The position numbers were made by a program, and so were the translations under genes. Below, one piece after another: positions 3,670 to 45,760 of a stretch of DNA of 64,000 nucleotides. The stretch comes from Lysobacter alkalisoli (lineage in GTDB: Bacteria; Pseudomonadota; Gammaproteobacteria; Xanthomonadales; Xanthomonadaceae): assembly GCF_006547045.1 (NCBI RefSeq), contig NZ_CP041242.1, positions 2,986,001-3,050,000 on the forward strand. Reading direction: 5' to 3'. The stretch's first letter is position 1; each line of letters begins with the position of its first letter. Under the pieces are notes generated by a model that saw only the letters and a list, made by a program, of their open reading frames with translations, was not told where the DNA came from and made no database searches.

Positions 3670-5034
3670 ATGACCGAGACACGCAGCGCACTCATCGTCG
3701 ACGACGAACGCGACATCCGCGAACTCCTGGTGATGACACTGGGCCGGATGGGGCTGCGTTGCGACACCGCGTCCAGCGTCGGCGATGCCCGTGCCCAGTT
3801 GCAGCGCAACCGCTACGACCTGTGCCTGACCGACATGCGCCTGCCGGACGGTTCCGGCATCGAGTTGATCAGCGACATCAGCCAGAAATACCCGGAAACC
3901 CCGGTCGCCATGATCACCGCCTTCGGCAACGTCGAGGCCGCGGTCGAGGCGCTCAAGGCCGGCGCGTTCGACTTCGTCGCCAAGCCCGTCGATCTCAACG
4001 TGCTGCGCGACCTGGTCCGCCACGCGCTCGACCTGCAGGCCGCACGCAAGGCCGATGTCGATGCCGTCGCCTCGCGCCTGTATGGCGATTCCCCGGCCAT
4101 GACCACGCTGCGGCAGACCATCGCCAAGGTCTCGCGCAGCCAGGCCCCGGTCTACATCGCCGGTGAATCCGGCGTCGGCAAGGAACTGGTCGCCCGCACC
4201 ATCCACGCCGAGGGTGCCCGTTCGGCCGGCCCGTTCGTGCCGGTCAACTGCGGCGCGATCCCGTCCGAGCTGATGGAAAGCGAGTTCTTCGGCCACAAGA
4301 AGGGCAGCTTCACCGGTGCCCACGCCGACAAGCCGGGCCTGTTCCAGACCGCCGAGGGCGGCACCCTGTTCCTCGACGAGGTCGCCGAACTGCCGCTGCC
4401 GATGCAGGTCAAGCTGCTGCGCGCGATCCAGGAGAAATCCGTCCGCGCGGTCGGCGCCAACAGCGAGAACCCGGTCGACGTGCGCATCCTCTCGGCCACC
4501 CACAAGGACCTGTCGAAACTGGTCGCCGAAGGCCGGTTCCGCCAGGATCTCTACTACCGCATCAACGTCATCGAACTGCGCGTGCCACCGCTGCGCGAGC
4601 GCCTCGAAGACCTGCCCGGCCTGTCGGCCCGCATCCTCGGCCGCCTCGCCGAAGCCCAGGGCCGCGTGGTGCCGCGGCTCGACGACAGCGCCGTCGACGC
4701 CCTGCGCAAGTACCCGTTCCCCGGCAACGTGCGCGAACTGGAGAACATCCTCGAACGCGCCCTGGCCCTCGCCGACGACGAAATGCTGACCGCCGGCGAC
4801 CTGCACCTGCCCCGCGTCGAGACCGACCCCCACAACAGTCCGCTCGATCCGCGCACCCTCGACCCGCGCGACACCGCCACCAGCGCCCTGCCCTCATACA
4901 TCGAGGAGATCGAGCGTGCCGCCATCCAGCACGCCCTGCAGGAAAACCGCTACAACAAGACCCGCACCGCGCAGGCCCTGGGCATCACCTTCCGGGCGCT
5001 GCGCTACAAGCTCAAGAAACTCGGGATCGACTGA
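3670..5034 (+). CDS. pilR: Sigma-54-dependent response regulator PilR
   Basis: 454 residues. The ATG at 3670 was chosen because a strong GGGGAGAGGAAAG ribosome site precedes it, although the frame is open upstream. The receiver domain has DDERD near residue 11 and the phospho-acceptor Asp55 (LTDMRLPDG). The AAA+ domain has Walker A GESGVGKE near residue 165 and the sigma-54 contact loop as GSFTGA. The C-terminal Fis-type helix-turn-helix is NKTRTAQALGITFRALRYKL. It should act at the two -24/-12 promoters in front of the pilin genes at 6370 and 7076. Confidence 0.97.
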   Translation: MTETRSALIVDDERDIRELLVMTLGRMGLRCDTASSVGDARAQLQRNRYDLCLTDMRLPDGSGIELISDISQKYPETPVAMITAFGNVEAAVEALKAGAFDFVAKPVDLNVLRDLVRHALDLQAARKADVDAVASRLYGDSPAMTTLRQTIAKVSRSQAPVYIAGESGVGKELVARTIHAEGARSAGPFVPVNCGAIPSELMESEFFGHKKGSFTGAHADKPGLFQTAEGGTLFLDEVAELPLPMQVKLLRAIQEKSVRAVGANSENPVDVRILSATHKDLSKLVAEGRFRQDLYYRINVIELRVPPLRERLEDLPGLSARILGRLAEAQGRVVPRLDDSAVDALRKYPFPGNVRELENILERALALADDEMLTAGDLHLPRVETDPHNSPLDPRTLDPRDTATSALPSYIEEIERAAIQHALQENRYNKTRTAQALGITFRALRYKLKKLGID

Positions 5035-5936: not shown

Positions 5937-6256
5937 GCGTTGGATGGCAGCCGCCCGCGCCACCGGACAAGCGGCCCGGCCGAGAGGGCACCTCCGGCAT
6001 CCCCGCGCCAAGCCGCGCGTGAGCATTGCGCCCTGTCCATGACCTGTGGGTCGCCCGCAAGCAAGTTGACCTGCAGCGTGTCGGCAAGCTGGAACTGACG
6101 GCGGCCTGAGACCCTTACCCTACGCCCCGAAACTGACGTTGCGCGTCACTTTCATCCGACGGACTGCCCATTCAGGTCACTGCAAGCTTGACTTTTATCA
6201 CAAAAAATGGGTGATGGTGACGGGATTTAGCCCCCGTCCAGCCATCTGAATGCCGT

Positions 6257-6271
6257 TGGCACGGGTTGTGC
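6257..6271 (+). promoter_or_regulatory. Sigma-54 (-24/-12) promoter of the first pilin gene
   Basis: TGGCACGGGTTGTGC keeps the GG and GC dinucleotides at exact -24/-12 spacing (consensus TGGCAC-N5-TTGC, one mismatch in the -12 box). It lies about 100 bases before the pilin ATG at 6370, which leaves a leader of about 85 bases. PilR, encoded 1.2 kb upstream, is the expected activator. The rest of the 433-base gap from 5937 to 6369 holds no recognisable gene; the stretch before the promoter (GACTTTTATCACAAAAAATG, near 6190) is AT-rich and could hold PilR sites. Confidence 0.85.
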
Positions 6272-6369
6272 GTGTATTCCCCTGCACGTGCAGCACGCAC
6301 GGCAAGCCGATGGACCGGGGATCCGGGCCGGCAGGCACGTGAAGTTCAACAACCCTAGGGGAAACACAA

Positions 6370-6726
6370 ATGAAGAAGCAGCAAGGCTTTACCCTCATCG
6401 AACTGATGATCGTCGTCGCGATCATCGCAATCCTGGCCGCCATCGCGCTGCCGGCGTATAACGATTACCGCATCCGCTCGGCTGAAGGCGCCTGCCAGTC
6501 CGAGGCCAAGGCCTACATGAACTCGGCGGTAGCCGCTGCCCAGTCGTCAATGAACCAACCGACAGCTCCTGACGGCACTGGCGCCTGTCAGGCATTTACC
6601 GACGTCATTGATGAGGCGGCGGTTCAGGCGGGCGGCACGGTGAGTTTCACCCCGAACTCCCCGGGCGTGTCGACTACCGATTGTGACCTTCAAACAGCTA
6701 CCTGCACGATGGTCCCCTCAGTCTGA
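6370..6726 (+). CDS. pilA: Type IV major pilin, first copy
   Basis: 118 residues with a class III signal: leader MKKQQG, then [20 protein letters not shown]. PilD should cleave after Gly6 and methylate Phe1, and Glu5 of the mature protein is present. The mature pilin (112 residues) is short. Cysteines are at 42, 73, 105 and 112; the C-terminal pair (CDLQTATC) probably closes the D-region disulphide. It is followed by a strong intrinsic terminator, so it is a single-gene transcript from its own sigma-54 promoter. It shares the leader helix, the AYN[DE]YR[IV]RSAEGAC segment and the four-cysteine pattern with the pilin at 7076, but the remaining surface differs. Confidence 0.97.
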
Positions 6727-6749
6727 TCGCGTATTCGCAAGCACCCTGG

Positions 6750-6778
6750 AAGGCCCCTCAGCGAGGGGCCTTCTTTTT
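6750..6778 (+). terminator. Rho-independent terminator after the first pilin gene
   Basis: AAGGCCCCTC-AGC-GAGGGGCCTT stem followed by TTCTTTTT, 24 bases after the pilin stop codon. The remaining gap to 7075 holds no gene other than the next sigma-54 promoter. Confidence 0.92.
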
Positions 6779-7026
6779 GGGTTCTTCACCAAAGTCCGAG
6801 ATATGAATTCCGCAAGAACAGCCGCCAGCCGGAGTCAGGGGTGTTCCGCCCCGCCGGCCACCGTTTTCGCGAACACGGCGATGTACCGTCCGGATGGGTT
6901 TGCCTGCAAGCACCGGCCCATAATGCAGAAGCCGGTCACCCAGCCGTCGAGTTCTCCAGCACGCCGCGGACACTAATGCGACATACGTCACGGAACCCGC
7001 ATGCAGCGCTGAACTAGGGGACTCGC

Positions 7027-7042
7027 TGGCACGGCTCTTGCT
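7027..7042 (+). promoter_or_regulatory. Sigma-54 (-24/-12) promoter of the second pilin gene
   Basis: TGGCACGGCTCTTGCT is a perfect match to the sigma-54 consensus TGGCAC-N5-TTGCW. It lies 34 bases before the pilin ATG at 7076. It is closer to consensus than the promoter of the first pilin and gives a shorter leader. Confidence 0.93.
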
Positions 7043-7075
7043 GCCACTAGAAGGCACACACAGGGGACTGCTGCC

Positions 7076-7405
7076 ATGATCCGCATCGCGCGCGGCTTCA
7101 CACTAATCGAACTGATGATCGTGGTCGCGATCATCGCCATTCTAGCCGCTATCGCGCTACCGGCCTACAACGAATATCGTGTTCGCTCGGCAGAGGGCGC
7201 CTGTCAGGCCGAGATGAAGAGCTACGCCAACTTCTCCCTTGCCACCCTGCACAATGGCAGCACCCCCGACCCAGCCCCGCTCCAGGCCTGCAGCGCCGCC
7301 GACGATGCCAGCGCCATCGGCACCGACATCACCGGCACCCCGCAGCTACCGGGCTCACGGCAAACCTTGTGCGATATGGACACCGGCAACTGTACGCTGC
7401 AGTGA
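7076..7405 (+). CDS. pilA: Type IV pilin, second copy
   Basis: 109 residues. The leader MIRIARG is cleaved before [20 protein letters not shown]; mature length is 102 residues. Cysteines at 43, 72, 99 and 106 match the spacing in the first pilin. Similarity to the first pilin is near-complete up to residue 43 and weak after that, so this is an old or diversified duplication. No clear terminator follows; a short hairpin (7407-7422) without a T-run is the only structure before pilB. Which pilin is the major subunit cannot be told from sequence. Confidence 0.95.
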
Positions 7406-7750
7406 CGCCCGGCACGGCGGGCAACCGCGGTGCCAGTGCGGCCAGGCCAACGCATGGTAACCGCGGCATCGGAAGCATCCTTCCCGCGACCAACGCGACC
7501 TGAAAGTGCACACTGCCTACACCCACTTCAACCCAGCCAAACGCGGCCACCTCACTTGCCGCAGTGACAGGCCGTTCTCCGCCTTCCCAGCACAGGTGCG
7601 CCCGCGACCTGCTCCCATCCGACTGGCAGAGACAATCGCCATAGCCCGACGGCTTGATGACGCGGGCCGGCCGGGGATTTCGTGTACCACGTCCGTTCGG
7701 CGCGGGTATGCTTTGCGGTAGAGTCGGCTCGGGAAATATCAGGGGACAGG
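7406..7750 (+). other. Gap between second pilin and pilB
   Basis: 345 bases without a supported gene. It holds the small hairpin GCCCG-N6-CGGGC at 7407-7422 and an AGGGGACAGG ribosome site directly before the pilB ATG. No sigma-54 box with correct spacing was found in front of pilB. A TATGCT near 7707 could be a sigma-70 -10 element, but no matching -35 is evident. Confidence 0.5.
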
Positions 7751-9472
7751 ATGAACACCGTCGCGACCACCAACCTGGTCGGCATCACCGGCATTGCCCG
7801 GCGCCTGGTCATGGACGGCGCGCTCGACGAGCATGCCGCCCGCGAGGCGATGGAAGCGGCCACCACGGAAAAGAAACCGCTGGCGCTGTACCTGGCCGAG
7901 AAGCGGCTGGTGTCGCAACCGGCGCTGGCGGCGGCCAACTCGGTCGAGTTCGGCATGCCGTTGTTCGACCCTGGCGCGCTCGACCCGACGCAGTCGGCGA
8001 TCCGGCTGATCAGCGAAGAGCTGGCTCGCAAGCACAACGTGCTGCCGCTGTACAAGCGCGGCAACCGCCTGTTCATCGGCATCGCCGACCCGACCAACAT
8101 CCATGCGCTGGACGAGATCAAGTTCCAGACCAACCTGGTGGTGGACGCTGTGCTGGTCGACGACGAGTCGATCCGGCGCAACCTGGACCGCTGGCTGGAC
8201 AGCGCCGACGTGCTCGAAAGCGCCGCCGGCGATGAAGGGCTGGAGAACCTGGAGGTCGGCAATGTCGACGCCGAGGCCGGCGGCGACTCCGGCGTCGACG
8301 CCAAGGGTGACGACACTCCGGTGGTCAAGTTCGTCAACAAGGTGCTGGTGGACGCGATCCGCCGCGGTGCCTCGGACATCCACTTCGAACCCTACGAGAC
8401 CGAATACCGGGTGCGCCTGCGCATCGACGGCCTGCTCAAGCAGATCGCCAAGGTCCCGGTCAAGCTGCAGGCCCGCATCGGCGCGCGCCTGAAGGTAATG
8501 GCGCAGCTCGACATCGCCGAGAAGCGGGTGCCGCAGGACGGGCGAATCAAGCTCAACCTGAGCAAGACCAAGCAGATCGACTTCCGAGTCAGCACCCTGC
8601 CCACCCTTTTTGGCGAGAAGATCGTGCTGCGTATCCTCGATGGCGGCGCGGCCAAGCTCGGCATCGACATGCTCGGTTACGAGAGCGACCAGAAGCAGCT
8701 GTACCTGGGCGCCATCGCCAAGCCCTACGGCATGGTGCTGGTGACCGGCCCGACCGGCTCAGGCAAGACGGTGTCGCTGTACACCGCGCTGAACATCCTC
8801 AACGACGACACCCGCAACATATCCACCGTCGAAGACCCGGTCGAGATCCGCGTGCCGGGCATCAACCAGGTGCAGATGAACACCAAGCGCGGGATGACCT
8901 TCGCCGCCGCGCTGCGCAGTTTCCTGCGCCAGGACCCGGACGTGATCATGGTCGGCGAAATCCGCGACCTGGAGACGGCCGAGATCGGCATCAAGGCCGC
9001 GCAGACCGGCCACATGGTGCTGTCGACCCTGCACACCAACGACGCGCCGCAGACCATCGCCCGGCTGATGAACATGGGCGTGGCGCCGTTCAACATCACC
9101 AGTTCGGTGACCCTGGTCATCGCCCAGCGCCTGGCCCGGCGCCTGCACAGCTGCAAGCGCAAGGTGGAGCTGCCCGCGCATGCACTGCTGGCCGAGGGCT
9201 TCACCCAGGAAGAGATCGACGCCGGCCTGACCCTGTACGAGGCGGTTGGCTGCCCGGACTGCACCGAGGGCTACAAGGGCCGCACCGGCATCTACCAGGT
9301 CATGCCGATGAGCGACGAGATCCAGGCCATCGTGCTGGCCGGCGGCAACGCGATGCAGATCGCCGAGGCGGCGCAGAAGGCCGGTGTCCGCGACCTGCGC
9401 CAGTCGGCACTGCTGAAGGTCAAGAACGGGGTGACCAGTCTGGCCGAGATCAATCGGGTGACGAAGGATTAG
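7751..9472 (+). CDS. pilB: Type IV pilus assembly ATPase PilB
   Basis: 573 residues. The ATG at 7751 is chosen for its AGGGGACAGG ribosome site; the open frame begins further upstream. The N-terminal GspE/PilB domain is followed by the hexameric ATPase core, with Walker A GPTGSGKT near residue 332, an Asp box, Walker B RQDPDVIMVGEIRD near residue 400 and the His box TLHTNDAP. A C-terminal CPDC remains near residue 500. The usual partner CxxC appears here as LHSCK (near 467), so the zinc site may use His in place of one Cys. PilB powers pilus extension at the inner membrane together with PilC. Confidence 0.96.
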   Translation: MNTVATTNLVGITGIARRLVMDGALDEHAAREAMEAATTEKKPLALYLAEKRLVSQPALAAANSVEFGMPLFDPGALDPTQSAIRLISEELARKHNVLPLYKRGNRLFIGIADPTNIHALDEIKFQTNLVVDAVLVDDESIRRNLDRWLDSADVLESAAGDEGLENLEVGNVDAEAGGDSGVDAKGDDTPVVKFVNKVLVDAIRRGASDIHFEPYETEYRVRLRIDGLLKQIAKVPVKLQARIGARLKVMAQLDIAEKRVPQDGRIKLNLSKTKQIDFRVSTLPTLFGEKIVLRILDGGAAKLGIDMLGYESDQKQLYLGAIAKPYGMVLVTGPTGSGKTVSLYTALNILNDDTRNISTVEDPVEIRVPGINQVQMNTKRGMTFAAALRSFLRQDPDVIMVGEIRDLETAEIGIKAAQTGHMVLSTLHTNDAPQTIARLMNMGVAPFNITSSVTLVIAQRLARRLHSCKRKVELPAHALLAEGFTQEEIDAGLTLYEAVGCPDCTEGYKGRTGIYQVMPMSDEIQAIVLAGGNAMQIAEAAQKAGVRDLRQSALLKVKNGVTSLAEINRVTKD

Positions 9473-42624: not shown

Positions 42625-43713
42625 CTACATTGTCGCCAACTCGTTGTTGCCCAGGGTCCGGTTGTAGTGATCGCGCAGGCCGACCTTTCGTTCCAGGTCG
42701 GCGATCACGTAGCCGCTGAAGTCGACACCGGTAAGTTCCTCGGCCATGTTGATTCCGCCGGGAGTGTCGACGTTGATCTCCATCATCTTGTCGCCGACGA
42801 TGTCCAGCCCGGCCAGGTACATGCCATCACGGATCAGCTTGGGAGCGACGATACCGGCAAGGCGCAGGGCGTCGGCATCCGGTTCGGCCAGTTCGACCTT
42901 GCCTCCCGCTGTGACATTGCTGCGGGCGTCCCCCGAGTCGTTGTAGCGACGGAAGCACGCGTACTTCCCGTCGACCTGCAGCGGCCGTCCATTGAGCGTG
43001 AGCAGCCTGAGGTCGCCGTTTCGCGCTTCCGGCAGGTACTCCTGGACGATCGCGTAGCCGTCGCGGACGACGGCGTCGATCATCTGGTTGAGGTTCGCAT
43101 CGCTGTCAGGGGTGACGACGAATACGCTCTGGCCACCGGAGCCCTGCAGCGGCTTGATCACGCCATGGCCGTCATGCGCCGCGATGAAGGCCTTGATCTC
43201 CTCGGCATCGAGCGTGATGCAGGTGACTGGCCGGACCACCTCCGGAAAGTGCTGGAAATAGGTCTTGTTGGAGGCATCGGTCAGGTGGGTCGGGTCGTTG
43301 AGCACGATCACGTGCCTGAGCGCCGCCAGTTGCGCGAACAGCAAGCCGCTGTTGGGTGCCCATGGACGCTCGTTGACTTCGTCCGCCGGATCGCTGCGCA
43401 GCATCAGCACGTCGAGTGCCTCGACCGAGATCCGCGCAACCTCCGCGTCGGCCGCCTGCACGTCGGCGAGGAAATCAGCGTCGTCCCGGTAATCGGTGCG
43501 CCTCGGCACGTGCGCATGGGCGTGCACCGTACCGTCGCTGTCATAGATGAAGCCGCCCAGGCCGATGAGGGCAACCGAATGCCCACGCTCGACCGCGCGC
43601 CGGGCCAGCCTGATGGTCGTGTAGTTGTCCTTCTCCGTCGCGATGTCGTTGATGACGAAGCCCAGCTTGATGGCGCGCGCAGCGCGCGGCTCCCGGCGGG
43701 ACGAACCCTTCAT
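42625..43713 (-). CDS. ATP-grasp ligase, glutathione-synthetase-like
   Basis: 362 residues from ATG 43713 (MKGSSRREPRAARAIKLGFV), next to the stop of the DUF1704 gene (four-base overlap); longer upstream frame is antisense noise. GSH-synthetase-type layout: N-terminal Rossmann-like domain (LGFVINDIATEKDNYTTIRL), VLMLRSDPADEVNERPW, the ATP-grasp lid GHGVIKPLQGSGGQSVFVV, VQEYLPEARNGDLRLLTLNG, and metal ligands in MMEINVDTPGGINMAEELTG. No standard gamma-Glu-Cys synthetase is nearby. It belongs to a three-gene operon with a DUF1704 zincin and an N-formylglutamate-amidohydrolase-like protein, a combination predicted to build or process a peptide-like product. Substrate unknown. Confidence 0.88.
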   Translation of the reverse strand: MKGSSRREPRAARAIKLGFVINDIATEKDNYTTIRLARRAVERGHSVALIGLGGFIYDSDGTVHAHAHVPRRTDYRDDADFLADVQAADAEVARISVEALDVLMLRSDPADEVNERPWAPNSGLLFAQLAALRHVIVLNDPTHLTDASNKTYFQHFPEVVRPVTCITLDAEEIKAFIAAHDGHGVIKPLQGSGGQSVFVVTPDSDANLNQMIDAVVRDGYAIVQEYLPEARNGDLRLLTLNGRPLQVDGKYACFRRYNDSGDARSNVTAGGKVELAEPDADALRLAGIVAPKLIRDGMYLAGLDIVGDKMMEINVDTPGGINMAEELTGVDFSGYVIADLERKVGLRDHYNRTLGNNELATM

Positions 43714-44918
43714 GACCGCGGCTCCAGGTGGTAGAAATCGATGATGCCCGTTTCCCGGCAATGCGCCAGCCGCGCCTCGAACTCGGGATGGTCGAAGTAA
43801 CGGGGCAGGAGCGCGGGCGGCACCGCCCATCCGTGTTCGACCAGCTGGTCGAGCACGACCCGATGCGACAGCGCGAACTTGCCCATCAGCAGGGGGACCA
43901 GGGGATTGCCCGCGTGCAGGTGGGCGATGAGGTCGCACAGCCCGCTCAGGTACACCGCATCCTTGGTCAATCCGCCGCCGCGCAGGGCACGCACCGCGAT
44001 GTCGAAAGCGTCGTCGGTGGGCAGGCCATGCGTTTCGTGCAGGCACGCGAAGATCTGCGCGATGCCGTCGCCATGGATCGCCATGTCGACGGCGACCACA
44101 CGCGCGGCCAGCACCCGCAGGCGGTCGCCCGACAGATAGCCGGCCAGGTACTCGGCCAGCACCCCCAGCCCTTCCTGCAGCGCGTCGTAGTGAGCCAACC
44201 CGACTTCCAGCTGGCGCAGCGGCTGCTTCGAGCCGTTGTAGCGCGTCACCACATGGGTGCCGATCTCATGCTGGACCAGCGGCTGGATGCGCGCGTGCGG
44301 CAGGCGTATGTCACCGTCGACGTAGAAGGTCCCGTGCGACACCATCATCATCGAGCCGATGTCGGTGTCGACGACGATGTCGGCATGGAAATCGGGTGCG
44401 CGCTGCCGGTACCAGTCCAGCTCGGCCTCGACCGCCTCAAGGACTTCGTCGATGCCGGCATCCGCTACCAGTGCACGGCCATGCGGCACCTCCCGCAGGA
44501 TGTCGCAGGCTAGTTCCAGCAAGGTGGCATCCACCCCGCCGAACAGGTCCAGGCTGGCGGTCACGAAGCCGTCGGTGCCACGTAATCGCACCAGTTCGAC
44601 CTGGCGCTCGAGCTCGCGCTGCTTCTCCGACAGGAGCCCCTCGAGCAGCGGCGACTCGATGCGGTCGATGGGCAGGTCGAGGAGACGTTGGCGGGCGTCG
44701 TCCAGGTCGATCTCGAGATCGATGTACCGCAGAGGCTCGACGCGGGTGTAGCCGCTGCTCCTGAAGCTTTCCCAGAGTCCGTCGTTATCGACCGGCGAGA
44801 GCGCCAGCAGCCAGTCCAGCTGCCGATCCAGTTCGGCCAGCTCACCATCGATCCCGGCCGCCACGGGCGGCAGCCCGCACACGTCGGATCCGATGTGCCG
44901 GGCGGCGCTCAGCGACAT
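43710..44918 (-). CDS. DUF1704 zincin (MATCAP-like / QEGLA-motif protein)
   Basis: 402 residues from ATG 44918 (MSLSAARHIGSDVCGLPPVA). The HExxxH zinc motif is QHEIGTHVVTRYNG (His217, Glu218, His222) and the family QEGLA motif appears as ALQEGLGVLAEYLAG (residues 246-260), which should carry the third zinc ligand. The family includes the eukaryotic tubulin tyrosine carboxypeptidase MATCAP; bacterial members are annotated as flavohemoglobin-expression-modulating proteins, with little support. An N-terminal helical segment of about 160 residues precedes. It overlaps both neighbours, so it is translated together with them. A peptidase role on the product of the ATP-grasp ligase is inferred. Confidence 0.85.
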   Translation of the reverse strand: MSLSAARHIGSDVCGLPPVAAGIDGELAELDRQLDWLLALSPVDNDGLWESFRSSGYTRVEPLRYIDLEIDLDDARQRLLDLPIDRIESPLLEGLLSEKQRELERQVELVRLRGTDGFVTASLDLFGGVDATLLELACDILREVPHGRALVADAGIDEVLEAVEAELDWYRQRAPDFHADIVVDTDIGSMMMVSHGTFYVDGDIRLPHARIQPLVQHEIGTHVVTRYNGSKQPLRQLEVGLAHYDALQEGLGVLAEYLAGYLSGDRLRVLAARVVAVDMAIHGDGIAQIFACLHETHGLPTDDAFDIAVRALRGGGLTKDAVYLSGLCDLIAHLHAGNPLVPLLMGKFALSHRVVLDQLVEHGWAVPPALLPRYFDHPEFEARLAHCRETGIIDFYHLEPRS

Positions 44919-45760
44919 GCGGTGAACTCCGGACGGACCCCATCCACGGCGGCCTGGAGCCCCTTGCGGAGATCCTCGATGACTTCGATGTCGGCATGTC
45001 CCTCCCACTCGTCCATGTAGATCTTCTTGTACTCCAGGGTGATGGCGCACACGCGATCGCCGTAGGTCGCGTACAGCCATTCCGGGAAATGGCCCCCATC
45101 GGGATAACGCACGTTCTCGCGCACATCCAGGCGGCGCCCGCCCGCGGGGTGCTCGCCGAGCACTTCGATCATGTACTCGACGACAGCGCCCCAGCGGCTG
45201 CGGTCCAGCGTGGTCGCACCCACGTCGATGTCGGGATTTCCGCCGGCCATCGCGGGCTGGGCGTCGGCACCGGCGCGGCGATGGTTGTAACTGTGGATGT
45301 CCAGGACCAGGACACAGCCCCAACGGGCGATCAGGTGCTCGACCAGCTCCGTCACCATGGCGTAGAAACGGTCGTGCAGGGCGAGCGAAAGCGCAAGCTC
45401 CTGCTCCGGCAACGGCCCTTTCCACACCCGTATCCCCCAGGTGTCCTCCGGGTTGGTCGAGAGCGCCCGCTCACGGGGCCGGTTCAGATCAACCTGGAAG
45501 CGCGATGCGCGCACGCACAGCCGCACATCGCCTACAGAGACCAGGACACCGGTCATGGGATCCTCCTCGCGACGGCGCTGGTCCTCGTCGATCGCCAGAT
45601 GCGGGATCAATGACGGACGCATCAGATGGCCGTCATGGATCGCGGTCGCGACCACCGGCCCCTCGTCCAGGACCAGGTCCCAGTCGGCACTGGGCCGCTG
45701 CAGGACCAGCCGCTCGTCCAAGCCGAAGAACGACGATGTCGCGGGCGCTTTATCGTCCAT
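44909..45760 (-). CDS. N-formylglutamate amidohydrolase-like protein
   Basis: 283 residues. The FGase fold shows VVATAIHDGHLMRPSLIPHL, HDRFYAMVTELVEHLIARWG, LVLDIHSYNHRRAGADAQPA (metal-binding Asp-x-His) and HFPEWLYATYGDRVCAITLEYKKIYMDEW. True HutG-type enzymes act in histidine breakdown, but no hut gene is nearby. In this operon it probably cleaves an amide or formamide bond in a different compound. It is the first gene of the cassette; about 140 bases without genes separate it from thiL. Confidence 0.85.
   Translation of the reverse strand: MDDKAPATSSFFGLDERLVLQRPSADWDLVLDEGPVVATAIHDGHLMRPSLIPHLAIDEDQRRREEDPMTGVLVSVGDVRLCVRASRFQVDLNRPRERALSTNPEDTWGIRVWKGPLPEQELALSLALHDRFYAMVTELVEHLIARWGCVLVLDIHSYNHRRAGADAQPAMAGGNPDIDVGATTLDRSRWGAVVEYMIEVLGEHPAGGRRLDVRENVRYPDGGHFPEWLYATYGDRVCAITLEYKKIYMDEWEGHADIEVIEDLRKGLQAAVDGVRPEFTACR

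Follow-up and report, generated by a model that had tools for sequence, protein, structure and literature searches.

ATP-grasp ligases of the glutathione synthetase (GshB) type act on a small peptide, joining an amino acid to its carboxylate, and RimK, the ribosomal protein S6:glutamate ligase, works on the C-terminus of a protein. HutG is the N-formylglutamate deformylase. Tubulin C-termini are handled by TTL/TTLL, MATCAP/TMCP, and M14 CCP enzymes, and human MATCAP-family enzymes are reported to have tubulin carboxypeptidase activity, acting on protein C-termini (PMC10499314). Here we examine three overlapping genes (the trio) in a stretch of 64,000 nucleotides from Lysobacter alkalisoli (contig NZ_CP041242.1, positions 2,986,001 to 3,050,000; hereafter the window) that encode a putative amidohydrolase of the N-formylglutamate amidohydrolase (FGase) superfamily, a MATCAP zincin, and a putative GshB-like ligase. 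The persistence of this trio over many phyla suggests a reversible modification system that has received little study and whose genes carry database labels from glutathione and histidine metabolism. A search of the openly accessible literature found, by the terms used, no description of the bacterial trio; the comparative-genomics report of such gene combinations alluded to in a preliminary description of the window is probably one said to be by Iyer et al. in 2009.

Results

A conserved three-gene unit

The trio occupies the minus strand in the order FGase, MATCAP, ligase, and the coordinates, identities, and overlaps all agree with the preliminary description. The first gene (44909..45760, minus strand; 283 aa) encodes a putative FGase-superfamily zinc amidohydrolase that exceeds the PF05013 gathering score (72.9 bits against 28.9). 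The second (43710..44918, minus strand; 402 aa from its ATG) encodes a short-form zincin of the MATCAP family, formerly DUF1704, that exceeds the PF08014 gathering score (251.8 bits against a cut-off of 27), and the third (42625..43713, minus strand; 362 aa) encodes a putative GshB-like ATP-grasp ligase with matches to PF02955 (148.6 bits) and PF02951 (34 bits). The FGase and MATCAP genes overlap by 10 bp and the MATCAP and ligase genes by 4 bp (ATGA). Among the listed open reading frames (ORFs) these are P0001, P0002, and P0003, with P0002 adding one residue upstream of the ATG.

Scanning genome contigs with a MATCAP alignment yielded 296 relatives in a pattern-limited search, of which the best 80 were kept, a sample biased towards this type of MATCAP. 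In 73 of these 80 loci, the FGase, MATCAP, and ligase genes follow one another in the same order on one strand with gaps below 1500 bp. Locus L094 contains all three genes at a spacing wider than this criterion, L104 carries MATCAP on the strand opposite to the FGase and ligase genes, the sequence ends close to the FGase side in L081, L087, and L101, no ligase is detectable in L059, and L112 has neither partner. By record titles, the trio ranges over Gammaproteobacteria (Lysobacter among them), Alphaproteobacteria (Palleronia, Parvularcula), Planctomycetota, Campylobacterales, Bacteroidetes, Balneolaceae, Anaerolineae, Gemmatimonadota, Kiritimatiellae, Verrucomicrobia, and Calditrichaeota, and it extends to Acidimicrobiia only in the L104 arrangement. 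Synteny is thus kept far outside close relatives, whereas its loss there was what the preliminary description had named as a refutation.

Pairwise distances of the three proteins co-vary, with r of 0.81–0.88 over 34 loci and 0.64–0.71 over 20 distant loci and none of 2000 permutations as high in either set, although common species history accounts for part of this co-variation. Together, the ordered trios and the co-varying distances place the linkage beyond chance. Within the flanks examined, a ThiL-like neighbor recurs in only 4 of the 80 loci and a UDG neighbor in 3, so it is the unit that is conserved and not its site, which upholds the earlier view of the trio as accessory. Rhizobial trios sit on large plasmids, the collection searched being one of plasmids only. 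In Sinorhizobium meliloti 1021, an FGase–MATCAP match lies on pSymB at 1,123,050-1,125,610, and the ligase probably comes immediately afterwards, as it does in strain 2011. Two MATCAPs are present in each of L087, L091, and L107. In Sinorhizobium medicae WSM419 (L141), the FGase starts near 530 and the MATCAP match begins at 4001, so something seems to separate both genes.

A less biased sample of 160 Pseudomonadota genomes, the window genome among them, contains MATCAP in 15. Four of these (G045, G075, G131, and G151) encode long-frame MATCAPs, at least one copy in each having a PF02955 gene adjacent and a PF05013 gene within 3 kb; the additional copies of G131 and G151 are missing one partner or both, and neither partner lies close to the 11 copies of ten other genomes or to the second copy of the window genome. 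These partnered and partnerless copies show that MATCAP comes in two types, trio and solitary. G151 has four MATCAP matches with three adjoining MATCAP–ligase pairs, an expansion.

A ligase probably distinct from canonical glutathione synthetase

The AlphaFold2 model of the window ligase (pLDDT 89.8) finds its best match in the Protein Data Bank in GshB (1gsa; E 9.9e-25, TMt 0.88), followed by RimK, LysX, and ArgX, with PsnB and PruB as remote matches. The ATP-grasp residues K150, K187, R256, E312, and N314 are common to the trio ligases and GshB. Eight sites nevertheless differ consistently, two of them by mere I/V swaps, between the trio ligases and five canonical GshBs (the window genome's own, two from Xanthomonadales relatives, and two from Alphaproteobacteria). 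Like the window MATCAP, the ligase lies below the cut-off of every NCBIfam family listed, including TIGR01380 (170.4 bits against 299.05) and NF009110 (390 against 408).

Given this fold and top match, and database annotations that name the ligase glutathione synthetase, the trio could represent an additional glutathione synthetase, or a route to a glutathione analogue, in which the two hydrolases would clean up; the Photobacterium ligase even scores above the glutathione synthase cut-off of PRK05246 (291.7 against 272), but not above that of TIGR01380. We regard this explanation as most unlikely in view of the low TIGR01380 score, the class-distinguishing sites, and the content of the genomes. 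Elsewhere in the window genome lie a canonical GshB (445.5 bits to TIGR01380), a PF04107 gene (308 bits), and a canonical HutG (L126; 360 bits, cut-off 278.75). TIGR01380 is exceeded in 5 of 17 trio genomes (the window genome, Lysobacter aestuarii, Dokdonella, and two Alphaproteobacteria), and in the remaining 12 the best score, 194.8–204.8 bits, is below the cut-off. Among gshA families, PF04262 is found in none of the 16 trio genomes searched, a set drawn outside the window genome, and PF04107 in 12 of 17. Five genomes (G201, G202, G204, G207, and G210), all metagenome drafts of uncertain completeness, have neither family, and by contig-range conversion their best TIGR01380 match falls at the trio's own coordinates.

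Because the window genome has a separate GshB and HutG, and because five of the draft genomes with a trio show no gshA-family gene, plain glutathione or histidine metabolism is probably not the main function of the trio. The preliminary description came to the same view, for which this whole-genome evidence is a better footing than its own weak argument that no gsh or hut genes lie nearby. Another proposal is peptide salvage, a catabolic role in which N-formyl or N-acyl peptides would be trimmed by MATCAP and FGase and the product re-acylated or stored by the ligase. The window FGase matches no NCBIfam family up to E 0.1, TIGR02017 (HutG) included, whereas its same-genome paralogue passes that cut-off, and among 33 distant loci no uptake or catabolic family recurs in more than 3; salvage is accordingly very unlikely in our estimation.

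Two or three ligases of two clades stand in tandem at L092:4946-7164, L094:6361-10442, and L100:3118-5269. Ligases that end in CTL go back to one shared node with nine leaves, eight of them CTL (support 0.999). More broadly, 45 aligned ligases, picked out of 86 matches by coverage and by locus, end at one column with [LMIV]-[ACSN]-x-[LMIV]; these tails were compared with the window genome's own GshB only, because the four control GshBs ended at the profile bounds. We considered this C-terminus as a tag and set the idea aside, as the end is helical in the model (block means pLDDT 88) and a structural role appears as likely. In Planctomycetes bacterium Pan216 (L099:7819-9186) the ligase appears to be split into two ORFs by one in-frame TAA, as in a decayed or interrupted copy. 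A solitary paralogue of the trio ligase lies on plasmid pCTYH.Ch1_2 of Ensifer adhaerens (L121) amid stress-type genes (CsbD, DUF2934, PRC-barrel); GGAAC-N15-18-CGTT motifs occur there five times within 13 kb.

Architecture of the two hydrolases

The window MATCAP carries the HEIGTH (HExxxH) and QEGLG motifs and a downstream Glu. The HExxxH motif of the trio profile aligns with that of human MATCAP, and the window protein has a weak match to KIAA0895-like (E 0.0019). It remains below the TIGR02421 (QEGLA) cut-off (283.1 against 338.65), which is passed by a Photobacterium fusion protein described below and by the window genome's second, solitary MATCAP (L115:6207-7469; 351 bits). The gene for this second copy overlaps the end of an RsgA-like GTPase frame, recognized by eye. 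The window FGase displays the motifs HDGH, SRFQVDLNR, and DIHSYNHRR, and His42, Asp154, His156, and Glu243 are invariant in a 38-row alignment.

Long MATCAPs possess an N-terminal domain of ~250 residues that resembles FGase minus the catalytic His. In Photobacterium DA100 (L118), the ligase gene (6028-7056) adjoins a single gene (7034-9022) for a 662-aa FGase–MATCAP protein (FGase 54 bits, MATCAP 366), and Photobacterium GJ3 has a similar arrangement. Vibrio sp. HDW18 (L127:4965-6956) encodes a comparable fusion (44.9 and 341.8 bits) without a nearby ligase. Its FGase part reads DMYAYNYQ where that of DA100 reads DIHSYNYQ, replacing the motif His with Tyr, and the MATCAP part retains HEIGVH; in this one case, the ligase is gone and the FGase part seems to decay. 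The degenerate-FGase domain of long MATCAPs, the FGase–MATCAP fusions, and the tandem ligases of two clades are new here.

A possible amide writer/eraser module

We tentatively propose, with confidence just short of even, that the trio is a self-contained module that writes and erases an amide bond, lengthening and shortening the C-terminus of a peptide or protein in a manner that loosely resembles the tubulin code. The ligase, being of the GshB/RimK type, would use ATP to activate a C-terminal carboxylate, to which it would then attach an amino acid. The zincin, as a carboxypeptidase of the MATCAP type, would shorten C-termini of this same kind, and the FGase would take an acyl or amino-acid group off the product. 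In the long forms, the degenerate FGase domain on MATCAP may provide a substrate-binding or docking part beside an active FGase. The chemistry of GshB-type ligases, the carboxypeptidase activity reported for human MATCAP-family enzymes, and a second putative amidohydrolase fit such reversible extension of a C-terminus. Taking the gene identities, catalytic motifs, linkage, domain resemblance, fusion, and tandem ligase paralogues as observed, we infer the reactions, their direction, the peptide or protein C-terminus as substrate, and a link to salt or stress.

Published expression data bear on this last point. In Photobacterium damselae, the ‘GshB’ gene A0J47_RS17020, treated by the authors as a glutathione synthetase, is up 38.42-fold and the ‘QEGLA’ gene RS17025 is up 27.51-fold at the lower salt level, 1% relative to 3% NaCl (PMC10308900). 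The consecutive tags and gene names suggest that this pair belongs to the trio module. A comparable adjacency is on record in V. vulnificus, where VV2_1203 (COG3930) adjoins the glutathione synthetase gene VV2_1204 (PMC3091676). Of 15 alphaproteobacterial loci, 3 have an EcfG-like motif (GGAAC-N16-CGTT) upstream, two of them from sister species, where 0.067 would be expected from shuffles; at this frequency, a stress promoter is not a general feature of the trio.

Several observations weigh against a C-terminal writer/eraser module. The expression evidence is a single transcriptome, matched to the trio by gene names and consecutive tags. Solitary MATCAPs are common (12 copies have no FGase or ligase nearby), and L112 has neither gene on its 5.6-kb contig. 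Among ORFs of at least 80 aa in 33 distant loci, clusters of wide occurrence comprise the trio, on its own strand, and frames that lie almost wholly on the opposite strand; no other same-strand family occurs in more than 3 loci, and one 8-locus set is entirely opposite-strand. The 3-locus clusters include ABC-transporter-like, regulator-like, and cation-transporter-like proteins, as judged by eye. A search for precursor peptides (ORFs of 25–110 aa within 700 bp, in 74 of the 80 loci) found small ORFs in common only between the close relatives L089 and L105 among 27 distant loci, and is blind to peptides that are highly diverged or encoded elsewhere. The preliminary description had the trio making, attaching, and removing a small tag, but neither a precursor peptide nor any other partner recurs widely in distant loci.

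A candidate substrate in Vibrionaceae fared no better. In both Photobacterium strains, DA100 and GJ3, the gene immediately upstream of the ligase is a DUF413 gene encoding an acidic tail (...DDDIDY in GJ3). In 8 of 11 compared loci, however, DUF413 occurs without the module in the stretch examined, with a LysR neighbor in 7 of those 8. The tails were inspected in 8 of the 11 loci, and all five module-less ones are acidic, that of V. campbellii ending in EDY. Since both features occur without the module, we rejected DUF413 as the substrate; that it adjoins the ligase may be incidental. When a whole class was searched, DUF413 turned up in just 1 of 114 genomes, which is not enough to serve as a control.

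That no protein target recurs beside the trio in distant loci favors the main rival, a small-molecule pathway. Here the trio would make and recycle a non-ribosomal peptide or a gamma-glutamyl or N-acyl amino-acid metabolite, such as an osmotic or stress metabolite, and the hydrolases would prepare the substrate or recycle the product. The structural proximity to GshB, the response to salt of what is probably the P. damselae pair, and the EcfG-like motif in 3 of 15 alphaproteobacterial loci also agree with it. On the other hand, those MATCAP relatives with tested activity are reported to work on protein C-termini (PMC10499314), a ligase acting alongside two co-encoded hydrolases would be futile unless they were separated in time, and no transporter or further enzyme family occurs in more than 3 of the 33 distant loci. 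We judge the small-molecule pathway possible, though on the doubtful side.

The genes around the window trio are for the most part housekeeping, with UPF0102, an FAD-linked oxidase, and a UDG-superfamily gene on one side and AIRS (ThiL-like), NusB, lumazine synthase, and a RibBA-type gene on the other. PADLOC-DB returned 0 matches for 5 proteins and the phage collection no match to the window MATCAP, and a role as a defence system was rejected on these grounds.

Discussion

Should the writer/eraser module be correct, many genes annotated as ‘glutathione synthetase’, ‘N-formylglutamate amidohydrolase’, and ‘flavohemoglobin expression-modulating’ would belong to one undescribed amide-modification pathway in many phyla, and the MATCAP family would gain a testable bacterial context. 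The salt-regulated ‘GshB’ of P. damselae may then be a trio ligase, which would give the data in PMC10308900 another reading. A bolder version, which we think rather unlikely, is that bacteria have their own equivalent of the tubulin code, a widespread operon that would reversibly lengthen and shorten the C-termini of selected proteins as salt or stress dictates. In it the ligase or ligases would write, MATCAP and FGase would erase, and the degenerate FGase would read the substrate, and eukaryotic MATCAPs would descend from a bacterial cycle of this kind.

The closest described systems each share part of this arrangement. Graspetide and other ATP-grasp peptide systems, represented by the remote matches PsnB and PruB, have in common with the trio the ATP-grasp amide ligation predicted for it, but the trio has no adjacent precursor peptide common to distant loci. 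HutG and the trio FGase are members of the same superfamily (PF05013); the latter has no TIGR02017 match, and a canonical paralogue resides elsewhere in the window genome. The trio ligase has the fold and ATP-grasp residues of GshB, yet it scores below the family cut-off, carries class-specific sites, and either coexists with a canonical GshB or occurs where no gshA family was found. RimK is among the next structural matches of the trio ligase, which nonetheless scores only 56.2 bits to its family, TIGR00768, against a cut-off of 143.4; we know of no hydrolase pair linked to RimK. Unlike the tubulin C-terminal enzymes, the trio is bacterial and encoded in one operon, its ligase is GshB-like rather than TTL-like, and its second hydrolase is an FGase rather than an M14 enzyme, with no known tubulin substrate. 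The trio MATCAP is nevertheless homologous to the tubulin enzyme by sequence and model, and the trio ligase and second hydrolase fall into fold classes comparable to those of TTL and CCP.

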